DNA from: Candidatus Thiodiazotropha sp. CDECU1
Lineage (GTDB): Bacteria > Pseudomonadota > Gammaproteobacteria > Chromatiales > Chromatiaceae
DNA length: 64,000 nt
Assembly: GCF_963455295.1 (NCBI RefSeq)
Contig: NZ_OY734020.1
Coordinates: forward strand, 2,728,001-2,792,000
Direction of reading: 5' to 3'
Below the pieces are notes generated by a model. That model did not search any database. It was not told where the DNA came from and worked only from the letters and a program-made list of their open reading frames with translations. The stretch's first letter is position 1, and each line of letters starts with the position of its first letter. Shown piece by piece: positions 6,601 through 29,698 of the stretch. A program made the position numbers and the translations under genes.

Positions 6601-7380
6601 TCACCTCGTCACCTGAAGGGTCAGCATCAGATGTTGAAAGGCCTCATCCAGGAGTTCATTGAAGACAGCAAATACGTTTGGCAGGGTCACCCAGATCAAG
6701 GCAAAACCGAGCAGCATGGTGATCGGAAAACCGATCGAGAAGATATTCAGCTGCGGTGCGGCGCGCATCACCACACCCATACCCATGTTGACCATCAACA
6801 TGGCCCCCACAATGGGCAGTGCAATCAGCAGACCGCCGGTAAAAAGCCGGCTCCCCCAAGCAACGACTTCAAGCAGACCATTTCGCGAGATACCATCCAT
6901 CGCCACCGGCATGGTAGCGAAACTGTCAGCAATCAGCTCTATGGAAAGCAGATGACCATTGAAGATCAGGAACAGCAGGGTAGCCAGAATCAGATAGAAT
7001 TGTGCCACCACCGGCACCTGTACCCCGTTCGCCGGATCGACCATCGAGGCGAAACCCAGACCCATGCTATAGGCGATCACTTGACCGCCGAAGACCAGCG
7101 CACCGAATACCATCTGCAGGACAAAACCCATCAGCACGCCGATCAGGACCTGCTGCAGCATAATGGTGAATCCGGTATGACTCAGTACATCCGCCTGGGG
7201 TTGAGGCGGCAGTGTCGGCGCTATCAGCAGGGTGATCAGAATCACCAGAATAAGCCGAAACCGCGCAGGCACCTGACGGGAACTGAACAGGGGCATCGCC
7301 AACAGCATGGCGCTGATGCGCACCATCGGCCAGAGATAGGCCGCTAACCAGGTGTTGAACTGCGCTTCGTTGAAGATCAT
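6601..7380 (-). CDS. fliR: FliR, flagellar export apparatus membrane protein
   Basis: A 259-residue, highly hydrophobic protein beginning MIFNEAQFNTWLAAYLWPM with six or so membrane segments and the internal region GEIIAYSMGL-like (here GQVIAYSMGLGFASMVDP). FliR completes the FliPQR export channel at the centre of the MS ring. It lies 44 bases after fliQ and directly before flhB. Family assignment rests on length, hydropathy and position in fliOPQR-flhBA. Confidence 0.95.
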   Translation of the reverse strand: MIFNEAQFNTWLAAYLWPMVRISAMLLAMPLFSSRQVPARFRLILVILITLLIAPTLPPQPQADVLSHTGFTIMLQQVLIGVLMGFVLQMVFGALVFGGQVIAYSMGLGFASMVDPANGVQVPVVAQFYLILATLLFLIFNGHLLSIELIADSFATMPVAMDGISRNGLLEVVAWGSRLFTGGLLIALPIVGAMLMVNMGMGVVMRAAPQLNIFSIGFPITMLLGFALIWVTLPNVFAVFNELLDEAFQHLMLTLQVTR

Positions 7381-7424
7381 GGTGTTTCCAAATGTGCCTC
7401 ATAGATAGATTTTGTGTACCAGGC

Positions 7425-7694
7425 CTAAAAAAGCAGTTCCGGAATACTCTCGATAAGGTTCATGGAGAAATTCATCAGTAGGTGCAGCATCCAGTTACCG
7501 GCGAACATCAGCACTACACCCACAACCACCAACTTGGGGATGAATGTCAATGTCATTTCGTTGATCTGGGTTGCCGCCTGAAACATGGCGATAATCAGTC
7601 CCACAGCCAGCGCCGGCAACAACACCAGTCCAGCCAGTATGCCGATCACTTCAAGTGCATTTTGTCCAATCGACATTACTGTATCCGGACTCAT
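7425..7694 (-). CDS. fliQ: FliQ, flagellar export apparatus membrane protein
   Basis: An 89-residue protein with two membrane segments and the family motif QAATQINEMTLTFIPK in the middle. FliQ helices wrap the FliP/FliR core of the export gate. The start MSPDTVMSIGQNALEVIG and length are typical. AGGAGG lies upstream of the ATG, and the gene begins 12 bases after fliP. Confidence 0.96.
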   Translation of the reverse strand: MSPDTVMSIGQNALEVIGILAGLVLLPALAVGLIIAMFQAATQINEMTLTFIPKLVVVGVVLMFAGNWMLHLLMNFSMNLIESIPELLF

Positions 7695-22855: not shown

Positions 22856-23062
22856 ATCGGACCCTCCGTGATTGTTGTATTTATCCTGAATCCGCTCCTT
22901 GACCGAGTCCCAGATCGACTCTCTTATTCGTCTGGAAGCATCAAAATTCTGATCAGGTTCAATGACATGGCAGTGAATTACCATGTCCCATGCCGAATCC
23001 CGTTTTGTGCACTGCACTCAATCTGAATTCACGTTTTCAGGTTTAATTATTTTCTAAGCTTC

Positions 23063-23207
23063 TGCCCAAGTGTGGCTAACGATTACCACAAACAGGGCAA
23101 GTATTTACCACAGGAGGAGGATAAATGACAGATGGAGTTCTCTATCCAGCAGGATAAATATCTGGTTTGCGGGGTCAGGAGCCCGCGTCTGGCAAGGGTA
23201 CTCCAGG
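23063..23207. repeat. Repeat B, copy 1 (145 bp)
   Basis: Matches 29077-29221 over 145 bases with one mismatch (T/C in GGAGTTCTCT). It starts TGCCCAAGTGTGGCTAACGA and ends GGCAAGGGTACTCCAGG. On the minus strand it supplies the last codons GVPLPDAGS and stop of the transposase-like frame at 23175-23579. The plus strand has an isolated AGGAGGAGGATAA-ATG with a 10-codon frame, probably not a gene. It is probably part of an IS91-type element end. Confidence 0.85.
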
Positions 23208-23579
23208 GCGTACGTTGATCAGGCTCGTCGGCGGTGTCCGACTCTCAGGCAGCAGGCTGGGCTCGTTTACGTCGGCCTTTTGCTTCAGGTGATCGAGAAT
23301 CCTCTTGATCACCACCGGGTCTTCGATGCAGGCAATGACCTTCACCGCCCCGCCGCAGGCCGGACAGGTCTCAATGTCGATGCCAAAGACGCGTTTCAAG
23401 CGCTGCGCCCAGAGCCTGCCCCGGACTTGATCCGGGGTCATGGAGGCCCGGCACTCAGCCGGCGTTGGTGGTTCATCGGGTACCCTGGCCTTGTTGCCCT
23501 TGCCCCATTTGGCCGGGGTGACCAAGGCGCGATGCTTGCTGTTCGGCGCAAACACCCCGTGAAAGCGGCTAATCACCAA
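23175..23579 (-). pseudogene. IS91-family transposase, C-terminal fragment
   Basis: About 130 codons that resemble only the C-terminal end of IS91-type rolling-circle transposases: RFHGVFAPNSKHRALVTPAK, then the zinc-ribbon-like ETCPACGGAVKVIACIEDPV and IKRILDHL. The catalytic HUH and tyrosine motifs are missing, so it cannot be functional. Its 3' portion (23220-23463) is repeated at 26646-26889. The reading frame includes a palindromic CCCCGGACTTGATCCGGGG at 23419-23437, translated as PDQVRG. Confidence 0.75.
23220..23463. repeat. Repeat C, copy 1 (IS91 transposase 3' segment, 244 bp)
   Basis: Matches 26646-26889 over 244 bases with about five mismatches (roughly 98% identity by eye). The shared part begins CAGGCTCGTCGGCGGTG and ends CACTCAGCCGGC. 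High identity between two inactive fragments points to recent duplication or gene conversion. Confidence 0.85.
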
Positions 23580-26419: not shown

Positions 26420-26544
26420 AGAAGAATAAACGCCCTTTTTGCCCGGGTCCAGCAGCAGCTTACCGTCAACGGCCCACCACTTCACCGCCCGATCATCCTG
26501 AGCGCGCTCCGAATTCCGCGGATATCGTCTAGAACCTGCCTGTG
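26420..26544. repeat. Repeat A, copy 1 (125 bp)
   Basis: Matches 28954-29078 with three mismatches. It starts AGAAGAATAAACG and ends CTAGAACCTGCCTGTG. No gene family recognised on either strand. At the second site it abuts repeat B directly; here it does not. Confidence 0.85.
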
Positions 26545-26636
26545 TTTTCTCCATTTATCCCCCCCCTTCCCAACCTCCCGGCAAGCCGGGACCCTGCCGG
26601 GGCTCACGGCACAGCGTCCTAGAGTCGGTTGTTTTG

Positions 26637-26889
26637 TCAGGCGAACAGGCTCGTCGGCGGTGCCCGACTCTGAGGCAGCGGGCTGGGCTCGTTTGCGTCG
26701 GCCTTTTGCTTCAGGTGATCGAGAATCCTCTTGATCACCACCGGGTCTTCGATGCAGACAATGACCTTCACCGCCCCGCCGCAGGCCGGACAGGTCTCAA
26801 TGTCGATGCCAAAGACGCGTTTCAAGCGCTGCGCCCAGAGCCTGCCCCGGACTTGATCCGGGGTCATGGAGGCCCGGCACTCAGCCGGC
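26637..26889 (-). pseudogene. IS91-family transposase, second C-terminal fragment (repeat C, copy 2)
   Basis: About 77 codons with ETCPACGGAVKVIVCIEDPV and IKRILDHLKQKADANEPS, near-identical to the fragment at 23220-23463. It begins within MTPDQVRGRL and lacks all catalytic parts. The palindrome CCCCGGACTTGATCCGGGG is at 26845-26863. Its end does not join repeat B, so the tail differs from copy 1. Confidence 0.75.
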
Positions 26890-27050
26890 CAGCCTGACCC
26901 GGCTGAGCGGACTGCCTCCTGATGGAATACTCGGGGCAGTCATAAATCTTACATATTTGCCTGCTAGTTTCAGACTCGGCTCTGCCACGCCGGCAACAGA
27001 GTCGTTGTTACTCACGGGGCTCTTGAGAGCAGATCTGGAAAGGGGGACAT

Positions 27051-28883
27051 TTGTTCGAGTCAATGCTGCTGACAGCCTTCGTCATGGGGCTGATAAGTGC
27101 TTCCTCACTGCCTATGGGCGCGATTACGGCTGCCTTCTGGCGGCCCAGCGACCGGGTCACCGCCATGCTCATGGCCTTTGGCGGCGGAGCCCTGCTGGCG
27201 GCCCTGACCATCGACCTGGTGGCCGCTTCGGTGGAAGAGGGGCACTTTTACGCCCTGGCCTTCGGTGCCGTGGTCGGGGGACTGCTCTTCACTTCCCTGA
27301 ATCAGCTGGTCAACGACTACGGTGGTTTTCTGCGCAAGGCCTCGACGACCATCTATCATCTGCGGCGCAAGCAGCATCAGCAGATCCGCCAGATCATCTC
27401 GCGCATCCATCAGGTGCGGCTGTTTCACAATCTGCCGACTGCCGACTTCAAGGCCATCGCCCCCTCGGTGCGTATCTGCCACTATCGCCAGGGGGAGGCC
27501 ATCTACCGCAAGGGTGATCCCCCGGACACCTTCTACATCATTGATCAGGGACGGGTGGAGCTGTTCGATCCAGCCGCTGAGGAGCGGGTGGAGAACCTGG
27601 ATCGCTACAGCGTTTTCGGCTGGCACGCCTGTCTCACCTCGGCACCTAATGCCTTTAATGCTATTGCGGCTGCCGATGCCACGGTCTGGGCCATCCCCAA
27701 ACATGCCATCGACACCCTGCTGCTCAATTCACCCCAGTTTCAGCAAGAGGTGCATCTGTTGTTGCGCAGCGGGGAGCTGACCGGATACCTGCAAAAGCAT
27801 CATGGGCTCAGCGGGCAGGCAGCTGAGGACTGGAGTGACCAGGCGGCTCATGAGCTGATCCAGCGTGGCGTGTTGCCAGCGGCGGTCGAAGTGGAGCGCA
27901 TGAGTCAGCAGGTGATGGAGCGTTTTCCACAACTCAAACGACTGCCACCCCTGTTCAGGGATCTCCCCTTCGAGGAGCTGCAGATGCTGGCTCACTCACT
28001 GATCCACAAGCGCTACGATCAGGGTGAGACCTTCTTTCATCAGAACACGCGGTCGGACCGGGCCTTTATCATCGCCTCGGGGGAGGTGAACCTGATCGAT
28101 CCCATCACGACACTGCGCAAGACGGTTTCGCTGAGTGAGAACGATACCTTCGGCTTCTATTCCATGCTCACCGGCGCGGGTCATTCGGCAACAGCCGTGG
28201 CGACCCGTGAGACCTGGGTCTGGGAGCTGCGGCGTAGCGATTTCCTCGATCTATTGAAGTCGGAACCGGTTTTTGCACAGCGCTACCGGGCCTTTCTGCA
28301 ACAGGGGGATGCGGTACGCTACCTGGAGAGTCGTCACCTGAACGGCGAGCAGGCGGCACGCTGGTCCCGTAGCGCCCTGCGCAGCCTGGACAGCGGTGTG
28401 GCGCTGCCGTTGGCCGCCGATGTGGCGCTGGAGATGCGTGACAACCACGCAGCGCCCCTGGCCATCTGGCTGGGCATTACTCTGGACGGCATTCCCGAGT
28501 CGCTGGTGATCGGTGCCAGTCTGATCAATTCAAACATCAGTCTGTCATTGATCGCGGGTCTGTTTCTCTCCAACTATCCAGAGGCGCTGTCCAGCTCCAG
28601 CGGTATGCGAGAACAAGGATTCGGCTTTCGCCGTATCCTGGTTATGTGGACCTCACTGATGCTTTTCACCGGTATCGGTGCAGCCCTGGGCAACATCTTT
28701 TTTGTCAATGCCACACCCGCCATCTTTGCCTTGGTGGAAGGGGTCGCTGCCGGCGCCATGCTGACCATGATCGCTGAGACCATGATGCCTGAAGCCTACT
28801 TCAAAGGGGGCTCTGTCGTCGGCATGTCGACCTTGGCTGGTTTTCTGGTGGCGATCTTTTTCAAGACCCTGGAGACGGTGTAA
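27051..28883 (+). CDS. ZIP-like permease with two cNMP-binding-like domains inserted
   Basis: A 610-residue protein. Three membrane segments (residues ~5-28, 36-58, 67-88) precede two tandem CRP/cNMP-binding-fold domains (~125-240, FHNLPTADFKAIAP, YRQGEAIYRKGDPPDTFYII; and ~290-410, FRDLPFEELQML, YDQGETFFHQNTRSDRAFII). About five more segments follow (~468-608). TM4 has LDGIPESLVIG (478-488) where ZIP proteins have HNxPEG, and TM5 has LSNYPEA (506-512): the Pro-Glu pairs are kept but both metal-binding histidines are replaced. The domains sit in the ZIP TM3-TM4 loop. Neither shows the usual phosphate-binding cassette arginine. TTG start with GGGGGA 3 bases upstream; ATG at 27063 is the alternative. 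Confidence 0.75.
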   Translation: MFESMLLTAFVMGLISASSLPMGAITAAFWRPSDRVTAMLMAFGGGALLAALTIDLVAASVEEGHFYALAFGAVVGGLLFTSLNQLVNDYGGFLRKASTTIYHLRRKQHQQIRQIISRIHQVRLFHNLPTADFKAIAPSVRICHYRQGEAIYRKGDPPDTFYIIDQGRVELFDPAAEERVENLDRYSVFGWHACLTSAPNAFNAIAAADATVWAIPKHAIDTLLLNSPQFQQEVHLLLRSGELTGYLQKHHGLSGQAAEDWSDQAAHELIQRGVLPAAVEVERMSQQVMERFPQLKRLPPLFRDLPFEELQMLAHSLIHKRYDQGETFFHQNTRSDRAFIIASGEVNLIDPITTLRKTVSLSENDTFGFYSMLTGAGHSATAVATRETWVWELRRSDFLDLLKSEPVFAQRYRAFLQQGDAVRYLESRHLNGEQAARWSRSALRSLDSGVALPLAADVALEMRDNHAAPLAIWLGITLDGIPESLVIGASLINSNISLSLIAGLFLSNYPEALSSSSGMREQGFGFRRILVMWTSLMLFTGIGAALGNIFFVNATPAIFALVEGVAAGAMLTMIAETMMPEAYFKGGSVVGMSTLAGFLVAIFFKTLETV

Positions 28884-28953: not shown

Positions 28954-29078
28954 AGAAGAATAAACGGCCTTTTTGCCCGGGTCCAGCAGCAGCTTACCGT
29001 CAACGGCCCGCCACTTCACCGCCCGATCATCCTGAGCGCGCTCCGAATTCCGCGGATATCTTCTAGAACCTGCCTGTG
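28954..29078. repeat. Repeat A, copy 2 (125 bp)
   Basis: Second copy of the repeat at 26420-26544 (three mismatches). Here it runs directly into repeat B with a two-base overlap, giving an A-B composite of 268 bases that starts 3 bases after the hairpin at 28919-28950. Confidence 0.85.
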
Positions 29079-29221
29079 CCCAAGTGTGGCTAACGATTAC
29101 CACAAACAGGGCAAGTATTTACCACAGGAGGAGGATAAATGACAGATGGAGTTCCCTATCCAGCAGGATAAATATCTGGTTTGCGGGGTCAGGAGCCCGC
29201 GTCTGGCAAGGGTACTCCAGG
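29077..29221. repeat. Repeat B, copy 2 (145 bp)
   Basis: Second copy of the repeat at 23063-23207 (one mismatch). On the minus strand it provides the last residues (GVPLPDAGS) and the stop codon of the membrane-anchored protein encoded at 29189-29698. Confidence 0.85.
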
Positions 29222-29698
29222 CCGCACGGTAATGAAGCGATAGGGGACCGAAATCAGTCCCTGTGGAGTGTCGATCAAGACCTGGGCCTCCCACTCCATG
29301 GCGTCCCATACACACACCGGCAACATCCCCTGGCCACTGAACACCCCGTCGCCTTGAGCGCTCAACTGGGTCCGATTAAAGCCCATGTTCATATCCACGC
29401 CACTGAAATCGACGGCGATACTTTTCGCCTCTATACCCGCCAGGTCCACCCTTAACGCCAGGGGTTTCACCACCGGAATATCCCTGGGCTGGATGGAGAA
29501 GGTGACACTGCCGCCCCTATTCAACTGGGTCGTACAGCCACTGGCACGAAGATCACAAGCCGGATCGACACTCGCCGTATGCGCCGCCTTTGGGAAGAGC
29601 ATTGGCCAGGTCTTGTAGAGAGCGACTATGCAGATTGCCGCAAACAGCAGCCCCAGCAGTGCCCATAAAAGGGGATAATTGTTATTTGAGCGTTGCAA
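29189..29698 (-). CDS. Membrane-anchored protein (FixH-like architecture) with repeat-derived C terminus
   Basis: A 169-residue protein: a membrane span near residues 9-29 (PLLWALLGLLFAAICIVALY), then a periplasmic domain with two close cysteines (DPACDLRASGCTT), the motif FSGVDMNMGFNRTQL and MLPVCVWDAMEWEAQVLI. The layout (single N-terminal anchor, beta-sandwich-like domain) resembles FixH or other small copper-related periplasmic proteins, but the family is not certain. The final residues VRPGVPLPDAGS are encoded by repeat B, so the native 3' end was replaced. It lies 41 bases after the UbiA-type gene on the same strand. Confidence 0.6.
   Translation of the reverse strand: MQRSNNNYPLLWALLGLLFAAICIVALYKTWPMLFPKAAHTASVDPACDLRASGCTTQLNRGGSVTFSIQPRDIPVVKPLALRVDLAGIEAKSIAVDFSGVDMNMGFNRTQLSAQGDGVFSGQGMLPVCVWDAMEWEAQVLIDTPQGLISVPYRFITVRPGVPLPDAGS

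Follow-up and report, generated by a model that had tools for sequence, protein, structure and literature searches.

Gene and protein layout

Within a 64,000-nucleotide stretch of the genome of the clam symbiont Candidatus Thiodiazotropha sp. CDECU1 (contig NZ_OY734020.1, positions 2,728,001 to 2,792,000; hereafter the window) we analysed a gene for a ZIP-like membrane protein that carries two cyclic-nucleotide-binding domains (CNBDs) between its third and fourth transmembrane segments (TM3 and TM4). This CNBD-ZIP gene is present as a single copy in the genome, which forms one 4.46 Mb contig. An earlier note on this DNA had placed a 610-residue open reading frame (ORF) at 27051..28883 and had read its product as three TMs, about 380 soluble residues with two CNBDs in the TM3-TM4 loop, and five more TMs. 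The coordinates were confirmed, and the layout and the place of the insert were borne out: the protein runs from TM1-3 through ~378 soluble residues holding both CNBDs to TM4-8. The soluble loop was taken as residues 89-466, with the TM limits set by eye. The features are listed below in window positions, with comparisons to the ZIP transporter BbZIP (AF2, AlphaFold2 model; pLDDT, its predicted local distance difference test score).

27037..27047, + strand: Shine-Dalgarno-like GGAAAGGGGGA, purine-rich, just 5' of the TTG start; read from the sequence
27051..28883, + strand: CNBD-ZIP gene, 610 residues, TTG start, stop included; ORF and alignment
27063..27128, + strand: TM1, residues 5-26; AF2 helix 2-26 (low pLDDT), alignment, limits by eye
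27156..27230, + strand: TM2, residues 36-60; D55 and L48 stand where BbZIP has S106 and M99; AF2, profile-profile comparison, alignment
27246..27314, + strand: TM3, residues 66-88; N84 stands where BbZIP has D144, and homology makes it a scaffold helix; AF2, profile-profile comparison, alignment
27366..27911, + strand: repeat unit A, residues 106-287; CNBD-A (Pfam 144-225) and helical tail; Pfam, AF2
27615..27671, + strand: phosphate-binding-cassette equivalent of CNBD-A, residues 189-207; Trp191 for Glu, Asn200 for Arg; alignment
27912..28430, + strand: repeat unit B, residues 288-460; CNBD-B (about 297-408) and helical tail; Pfam, AF2, unit comparison
28149..28205, + strand: phosphate-binding-cassette equivalent of CNBD-B, residues 367-385; Phe369 for Glu, His378 for Arg; alignment
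28449..28520, + strand: TM4, residues 467-490; transport-domain helix by homology; AF2, PDB profile match
28485..28502, + strand: DGIPES motif, residues 479-484, in place of HNxPEG; alignment
28539..28598, + strand: TM5, residues 497-516; holds SNYPEA (507-512); alignment, PDB profile match
28626..28700, + strand: TM6, residues 526-550; T540 at the BbZIP E240 position; PDB profile match, alignment
28716..28787, + strand: TM7, residues 556-579; E576 at the BbZIP H275 position; PDB profile match, alignment
28812..28868, + strand: TM8, residues 588-606; K605 at the BbZIP D305 position; PDB profile match, profile-profile comparison, alignment

The Pfam cNMP_binding model (PF00027) matched two stretches of the protein (E=1.7e-33, 114.9 bits against a cut-off of 27.5). 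The AF2 model placed N-terminal helices at residues 2-26, 34-62 and 66-90, C-terminal helices at 468-490, 498-521, 526-550, 556-584 and 589-609, and two CNBD folds between them, with ten-residue pLDDT means of 70-91 (about residues 111-240) and 64-92 (about 297-417). As regards the sidedness of the loop, the stretch right after TM3 is basic and the whole loop holds 43 Lys and Arg against 45 Asp and Glu, the helices being modelled at pLDDT below 50. One relative (L006) has an ATG at the position equivalent to the TTG start.

Seventeen relatives, two of which are truncated, were aligned at 37-98% identity; their sources are Ca. Thiodiazotropha, further genera of its family and one alphaproteobacterial metagenome-assembled genome (MAG). 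The copy in a symbiont of the clam Ctena orbiculata (L001) is 98% identical to that of the window, and L003 is a T. endoloripes record. Measured against the 83%-identical L002, the ratio of nonsynonymous to synonymous substitution rates (dN/dS) was 0.064 for the whole gene, a rough value at a dS of 1.7; it was 0.022 in TM1-3, 0.059 in unit A, 0.097 in unit B and 0.032 in TM4-8, each equally rough at a dS above 1.2. dN itself was 0.028 and 0.051 in the membrane segments and 0.118 and 0.206 in the units. These rates show the gene to be under purifying selection, and low dN/dS together with 17 relatives at such identities means that the ORF is not there by chance.

The membrane part and its metal site

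A profile of TM4-8 (A4, 16 rows) searched against the PDB matched five distinct chains at E<=10, all of BbZIP type (6.7e-10 to 2.1e-9). These chains form one family, aligned near-identically along the length of the profile; one is named BbZIP, and PMC9873690 uses that name for entries 5TSB and 7Z6N. Profile-profile comparison (hhalign; values for single pairs, with no database) linked TM4-8 to canonical ZIPs (97.4%, E=1e-11). In the same way TM1-3 matched the TM1-3 of 20 canonical ZIPs (93.7%, E=1.9e-7) and five stand-alone relatives (98.1%, E=1.1e-13), and the stand-alone relatives matched canonical ZIPs over 218 columns (99.0%, E=2.1e-18). Residues 7-245 of one stand-alone protein, L071, aligned with positions 6-256 of the 266 in the NCBI ZupT model (E=2.1e-13), at a score of 50 bits that lies far under the equivalog cut-off of 252. 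Judged by these profiles, both membrane halves appear ZIP-like, as the earlier note had proposed, with TM1-3 linked to ZIPs mainly through the stand-alone relatives. A scan of the whole genome of the window found no ZIP above the Pfam cut-off; at E<=1, Zip signals came only from the CNBD-ZIP gene and a weak 181-residue frame at 2038619.

The binuclear metal site of BbZIP consists of M99, H177, N178, E181, Q207, D208, E211 and E240 (PMC9873690). In the PDB and profile-profile alignments these residues correspond to L48, D479, G480, E483, S507, N508, E511 and T540. Counted over the 18 rows of alignment A1, gaps set aside, L48, D479, G480, E483 and N508 are each found in 18/18, E511 in 17/17 and T540 in 16/16, while position 507 is Ser in 12 and Ala in 6. 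TM4 therefore reads DGxxE rather than HNxxE in all 18 rows; TM5 and TM6 have S/A-N-x-P-E-A and Thr instead of [QH][ND]xPEG and Glu, with E511 kept. Among 20 canonical ZIP rows from related genomes, chosen partly by the TM4 motif, HN stands in TM4 in all 20, TM5 has QD (12), QN (6) or HN (2), and TM6 has Glu (19) or Gln (1); Asn at the D208 position also occurs in 8 of them. The noted Pro-Glu pairs of TM4 and TM5 were found at 482-483 and 510-511. Of the two replacements of histidine that had been named, Ser507 was right, and the Asp is residue 479 rather than 478.

The resemblance to BbZIP and ZupT (GufA-type ZIPs of the SLC39 superfamily) thus lies in the TM4-8 profile match, the Pro-Glu pairs and a GAM-type TM7 motif, whereas H177, N178, Q207, E240 and M99 of BbZIP give way to D479, G480, S/A507, T540 and L48 in the family of the window protein. 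In BbZIP a flexible loop, unmodelled at residues 149-158, joins TM3 to TM4 (PMC9873690), against ~378 residues here. S106 and D305 of BbZIP are entry residues, and D144 and H275 exit residues (PMC9278863). The S106 position is Asp (D55) in 17 of the 18 rows and Glu in one, the D144 position (N84) is Asn in 14 and Asp in 4, and the H275 position (E576) is Glu in 15/16, with one Gln.

The altered metal residues are present as claimed; they are not peculiar to the CNBD-bearing form. Stand-alone ZIP-like proteins of ~240-260 residues from other Pseudomonadota (five rows, A6, L070-L074, selected by a TM4/TM5-type motif) carry DGIPE in TM4 and SNxPE in TM5, on the pattern D-G-x-P-E and S-N-x-P-E, and a Pfam scan of L070, L071 and L074 found no CNBD. 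A Deinococcus protein (WP_249395302.1, named 'ZIP family zinc transporter') has DGIPES and SNIPES, and a protein of the archaeon Haladaptatus (WP_227380302.1, named 'hypothetical protein') has DGIPES and SNVPQG. The stand-alone DGIPE proteins hence share the TM4 signature of the window protein and, except in Haladaptatus (SNxPQ), that of TM5, but have a short TM3-TM4 loop. Weaker stand-alone matches vary, with DGxPEN in L075 and L076 and DFLPEA in L077. Because the stand-alone proteins carry the same residues, the acidic, His-free site belongs to a wider branch, and we rejected the insert as the cause of the metal-site change. No description of a substrate for the DGIPE branch was found in the literature searched; NCBI annotation names some members zinc transporters.

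The CNBD insert, its distribution and its surroundings

Units A and B of the window protein are 30% identical over 172 residues (E=5e-22 in a small database), and they probably arose by duplication; in a unit tree with one outside CNBD only (L010), the A and B groups were weakly supported (74/53, 88/77). The CNBD fold expected from the letters was modelled, and the nearest matches of the insert in both sequence and fold were the tandem CNBDs of PKG and PKA, with Foldseek TM-scores that are low over the whole chain (<=0.44 by target). We take the consensus of the phosphate-binding cassette to be a Glu after FG and an Arg after Pro. The window protein has neither residue in either of its CNBDs. 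The Arg has a role in phosphate binding (PMC10959531). The Glu is absent from both CNBDs in 18/18 aligned members, its place in CNBD-A being taken by Trp (9), Arg (8) or His (1). The Arg position of CNBD-A keeps Arg in 6/18, the cassette reading P-R-A-T in five members besides L094 and R-R-A-T in one; that of CNBD-B is His in 17/18. L094, which has one CNBD in the same insertion place, has a cassette with both Glu and Arg (LGEIALVTGAPRTATAV). The proposed lack of the cassette Arg thus applies to the window protein (Asn200, His378) and does not extend to CNBD-A of those six members or to L094. A single-unit frame in L100 (G800, 1360-2598, - strand) has apparently lost unit B in frame and is without TM1; gene decay or an assembly error may lie behind it.

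Genome searches were confined to the phylum of the window. A whole-protein search at E<=1e-30 found the gene in 15 of 146 genomes of the family, two of them cut by contig ends (G406, G444) and two with interrupted frames (G519, G456); in the phylum sample it found 1 of 398, the window's own. The TM4-8 profile (A4) matched 19/146 genomes in the family, 33/210 in the order (9 of the 33 partial only, at contig ends or as remnants) and, at E<=1e-8, 24/398 in the phylum sample, where only the window's frame exceeds 500 residues and the others, as far as they were read, are stand-alone or canonical ZIP-type. It further matched 4/289 genomes of another class, two of them CNBD-bearing (L093, on the same contig as L005, and L094), and 3/219 of the class sample: the window's own, L118 (CNBD-bearing, from another family) and L119 (a 181-residue frame). 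The gene is patchy within its genus, as 8 listed genomes have a match (one a remnant only) and 14 listed have none.

Some genomes hold more than one copy, as in G478 (L018, L025) and G843 (three places). C-terminal remnants of 36-90 profile columns were seen in L008 (5968-6225, 57 residues), L063, L064, L066 and L068 and in G830, G840 and G845, standing alone or within unrelated frames; a Desulfofustis MAG contains one. These remnants suggest repeated decay of the gene. Searches of viral contigs gave 60 pattern-matching stretches, none coding a relative, and PHROGs gave no match at 1e-3.

In a TM4-8 tree (34 rows, 149 columns) the 18 CNBD-labelled rows form one clade (96/99) within the DGIPE branch, with stand-alone DGIPE proteins as the nearest rows lacking a CNBD. 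A long branch (100/100) separates the DGIPE branch from seven canonical ZIPs. Row L026 covers the end of a gene that is divided between two contigs, and its CNBD label comes from the other piece (L022); the tree program warned of a long branch at L037 and of long branches meeting where L075 and L076 join the ZIPs. The single-CNBD L094 sits among two-CNBD rows (92/84, 93/97), on a long branch and with moderate support, a placement that would rather mean the loss of one unit. An ancestral single-CNBD form found no support, and the unit tree does not settle the order.

Neighbouring genes were clustered from the ORFs of 16 loci (the window, L002, L003, L005, L006 and L104-L114; L103 and L115, the same loci as L003 and L005, were left out). 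The CNBD-ZIP gene fell in one cluster at 15 of the 16, being displaced by another frame in L111. A conserved operon was rejected, neighbour clusters reaching three loci at most. A Pfam scan of 20 neighbour genes gave single-locus observations, none recurring. In L104, a metallo-beta-lactamase-fold gene (6654-7463, - strand) above the Pfam Apyc1 (PF23023) cut-off lies ~70-75 bp downstream of the CNBD-ZIP gene on the same strand; it may act there as a cyclic-nucleotide phosphodiesterase partner, and PADLOC gave no match for it. In L006 a DUF2784 gene follows within 20 bp. The search for a copper or phosphate theme was given up, with a CopD-like gene upstream in L003 only and one PBP_like_2 gene near L105; further phosphate-ABC-like genes near the gene were seen by eye.

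Class III cyclase-domain matches were present in all eight carrier genomes tested: 29 in that of L094, 27 in that of L093 and L005, four in the window's and two to four in five other family genomes (counts without statistics). The nearest such cyclase lies ~0.98 Mb from the gene in the window's genome and ~404 kb away in G460; the six other carrier genomes have none on the contig of the gene, some of these contigs being short. In the window itself, repeated and partly broken pieces at 23058-23463, 26420-26889 and 28954-29238 closely flank the gene on both sides (247 nt at 98% identity, 167 nt at 95%, 125 nt at 98%), some such pieces being present in L001 too; one frame in them resembles what we take to be a transposase end.

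Possible function of the CNBD-ZIP proteins

The profiles and alignments establish the architecture, the position of the insert and the kinship of both membrane halves to ZIP-type proteins, and we regard as solid the predicted build of a ZIP-like elevator with built-in CNBD units. We favour, at a probability of roughly 0.55, the reading of the protein as a divalent-cation permease of ZIP fold and elevator type, under the control of its own CNBD pair. Points in its favour include the single-CNBD relative with Glu and Arg in its cassette and the class III cyclase-domain matches in all eight carrier genomes tested. We infer from the sequence that it would transport, that ligand binding to the CNBDs would gate it and that its ion specificity would be altered, much as the earlier note had suggested. 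The ion would be a hard divalent cation, because the mapped site has the invariant acidic residues D479, E483 and E511 together with N508, and no His. More speculatively, the ligand in the window branch may be neither cAMP nor cGMP, since both cassettes have lost Arg and Glu, and the near-constant His of CNBD-B may suggest a kept, re-tuned site.

The transport domain of BbZIP is built from TM1/4/5/6 and its scaffold from TM2/3/7/8 (PMC9278863). On metal removal the cytoplasmic side of TM4 swings off TM3 and TM7, and the hyperactivation seen when an amphipathic helix is deleted has been put down to the contacts which that helix makes with TM3 and TM4 (PMC9873690, citing others). Because the TM3-TM4 link joins scaffold to transport domain, the CNBD pair would be in a good position to restrain the elevator or to drive it. 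The folded two-CNBD module would then be the link from the static scaffold helix TM3 to the mobile TM4; ligand binding would close the CNBD lids, lid closure would move the helical tails leading into TM4, and this shift would free or lock the elevator. Extended to the relatives, this suggests a signal-gated clade of ZIP-type elevators whose regulator would be the tether itself, the ligand setting the travel, with a re-tuned sensor: a single cyclic-nucleotide-type site in L094, and in the window branch two units, one with a near-constant His where the phosphate Arg would be, that answer to another small molecule. We offer this extension tentatively, at somewhat less than even odds.

Several results weigh against the permease reading or against parts of it. 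With a six-row alignment, AF2 gave pLDDT below 50 for residues 1-105, 460-555 and 560-610, and Foldseek found no ZIP among the 50 best listed of 1,302 PDB matches; because AF2 failed to model the membrane part confidently, the ZIP claim rests on profiles, not on the fold. In the PDB, the ZIP match expected of the membrane parts came for TM4-8 and not for TM1-3, whose profile (A3) found no ZIP there (best E 1.8, RcpC). Pfam Zip (PF02535) scored the window protein at 19.9 bits against a gathering cut-off of 35.1 (E=4.8e-4), and L005 and the stand-alone L070 had no Pfam Zip match at E 0.1. The best Zip stretch set residues 8-75 on profile positions 236-313, so that N-terminal TMs fall on the C-terminal portion of the model, in keeping with the inverted-repeat symmetry of ZIPs (PMC13192868). 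Because the Pfam cut-off is not reached and HNxxE is missing, 'ZIP' would be too strong a label and 'ZIP-like' is the right one. Moreover, six of the eight residues of the BbZIP binuclear site are replaced (M99, H177, N178, Q207, D208, E240), and Lys or Arg takes the place of entry residue D305 in 11 of the 15 rows with a letter; given such replacements, the protein may not carry metal. The His of CNBD-B is not universal, being Arg in 1/18 and, in the distant L118 outside the 18, Glu (L118 has Asn and Glu at the two cassette Arg positions, by eye). Unit B has a dN of 0.020 and a dS of 0.004 against the near-identical L001, with very few changes, and there is no conserved partner gene.

The replaced metal ligands and changed cassettes would also fit a sensor or receptor, in which a non-transporting ZIP-like core senses a periplasmic ion or the membrane state and passes the signal on through the CNBDs, or in which the CNBDs serve as ligand-free docking domains. 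We think this unlikely: constraint, as judged by dN against L002, is strongest in the membrane segments, their glutamates are invariant, Pfam finds no output domain attached, no partner gene is conserved, and a similar CNBD-free core occurs in other Pseudomonadota, Deinococcus and Haladaptatus. Somewhat less probable again is a cyclic-nucleotide-gated permease in the strict sense, with cAMP or cGMP as the ligand of all members including the window protein. The Glu and Arg of L094, the P-R-A-T and R-R-A-T cassettes of six further members, the four cyclase-domain matches in the window's genome and the Apyc1 gene beside L104 all speak for it, but the window CNBDs lack both residues, none of the 18 members keeps the Glu in either domain, and no cyclase is near the gene, although a cyclase need not be a neighbour. 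Pycsar systems pair a cyclase with its effector, the class III cyclase being adjacent. A Pycsar-like anti-phage role, in which the protein would be the membrane effector and a cyclic nucleotide induced by phage would open it, would suit the patchy distribution, the Apyc1-family neighbour at one locus and the weak matches of CNBD-B to the PADLOC PycTIR (2.6e-5) and TIR-effector (5.5e-6) models. These matches are confined to residues 313-465, which are CNBD-B and its tail, a class III cyclase lies close to the gene in 0/8 carrier genomes as far as the contigs reach, and the membrane part is ZIP-like; we hold such a role to be very improbable.

Compared with known systems, the two consecutive CNB folds of the window protein recall PKG and the PKA regulatory subunit, yet its cassette Glu and Arg are replaced and its CNBDs sit in a membrane protein, not a kinase. 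The trypanosomatid PKAR likewise has CNBDs without the phosphate Arg, and these bind purine nucleosides instead of cAMP (PMC10959531). As read there, PKAR keeps the Glu at the FGE place (E309/E433) and adds a second (E311/E435), unlike the window family, which lacks the former in both domains. The sperm Na+/H+ exchanger sNHE (SLC9C1) is another transporter with a built-in CNBD; it belongs to a different transporter family, and its CNBD is C-terminal and cytosolic, behind a voltage-sensing domain rather than between TM3 and TM4 (PMC11120249). No paper on a CNBD-bearing ZIP was found in the literature searched, much of the literature lying outside its reach, which is not proof of absence; the main text of PMC5751234 and PMC13192868 has no words starting with 'cyclic'. 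The bare architecture may already be visible in domain databases, which would flag the CNBDs automatically.

Looking ahead, the control of ZIP transporters is generally ascribed for the most part to expression, trafficking and loops. If the permease reading is true, the CNBD-ZIP proteins would provide a direct and testable model of a cytoplasmic signal gating an elevator transporter through a sensor set between its moving parts, and the natural series of no, one and two CNBDs would supply ready-made comparisons. The family also draws attention to the ZIP-like DGIPE branch, found in bacteria and one archaeon, whose mapped metal site is without His. The layout conserved in related bacteria suggests an ion transporter that is switched by an internal signal.

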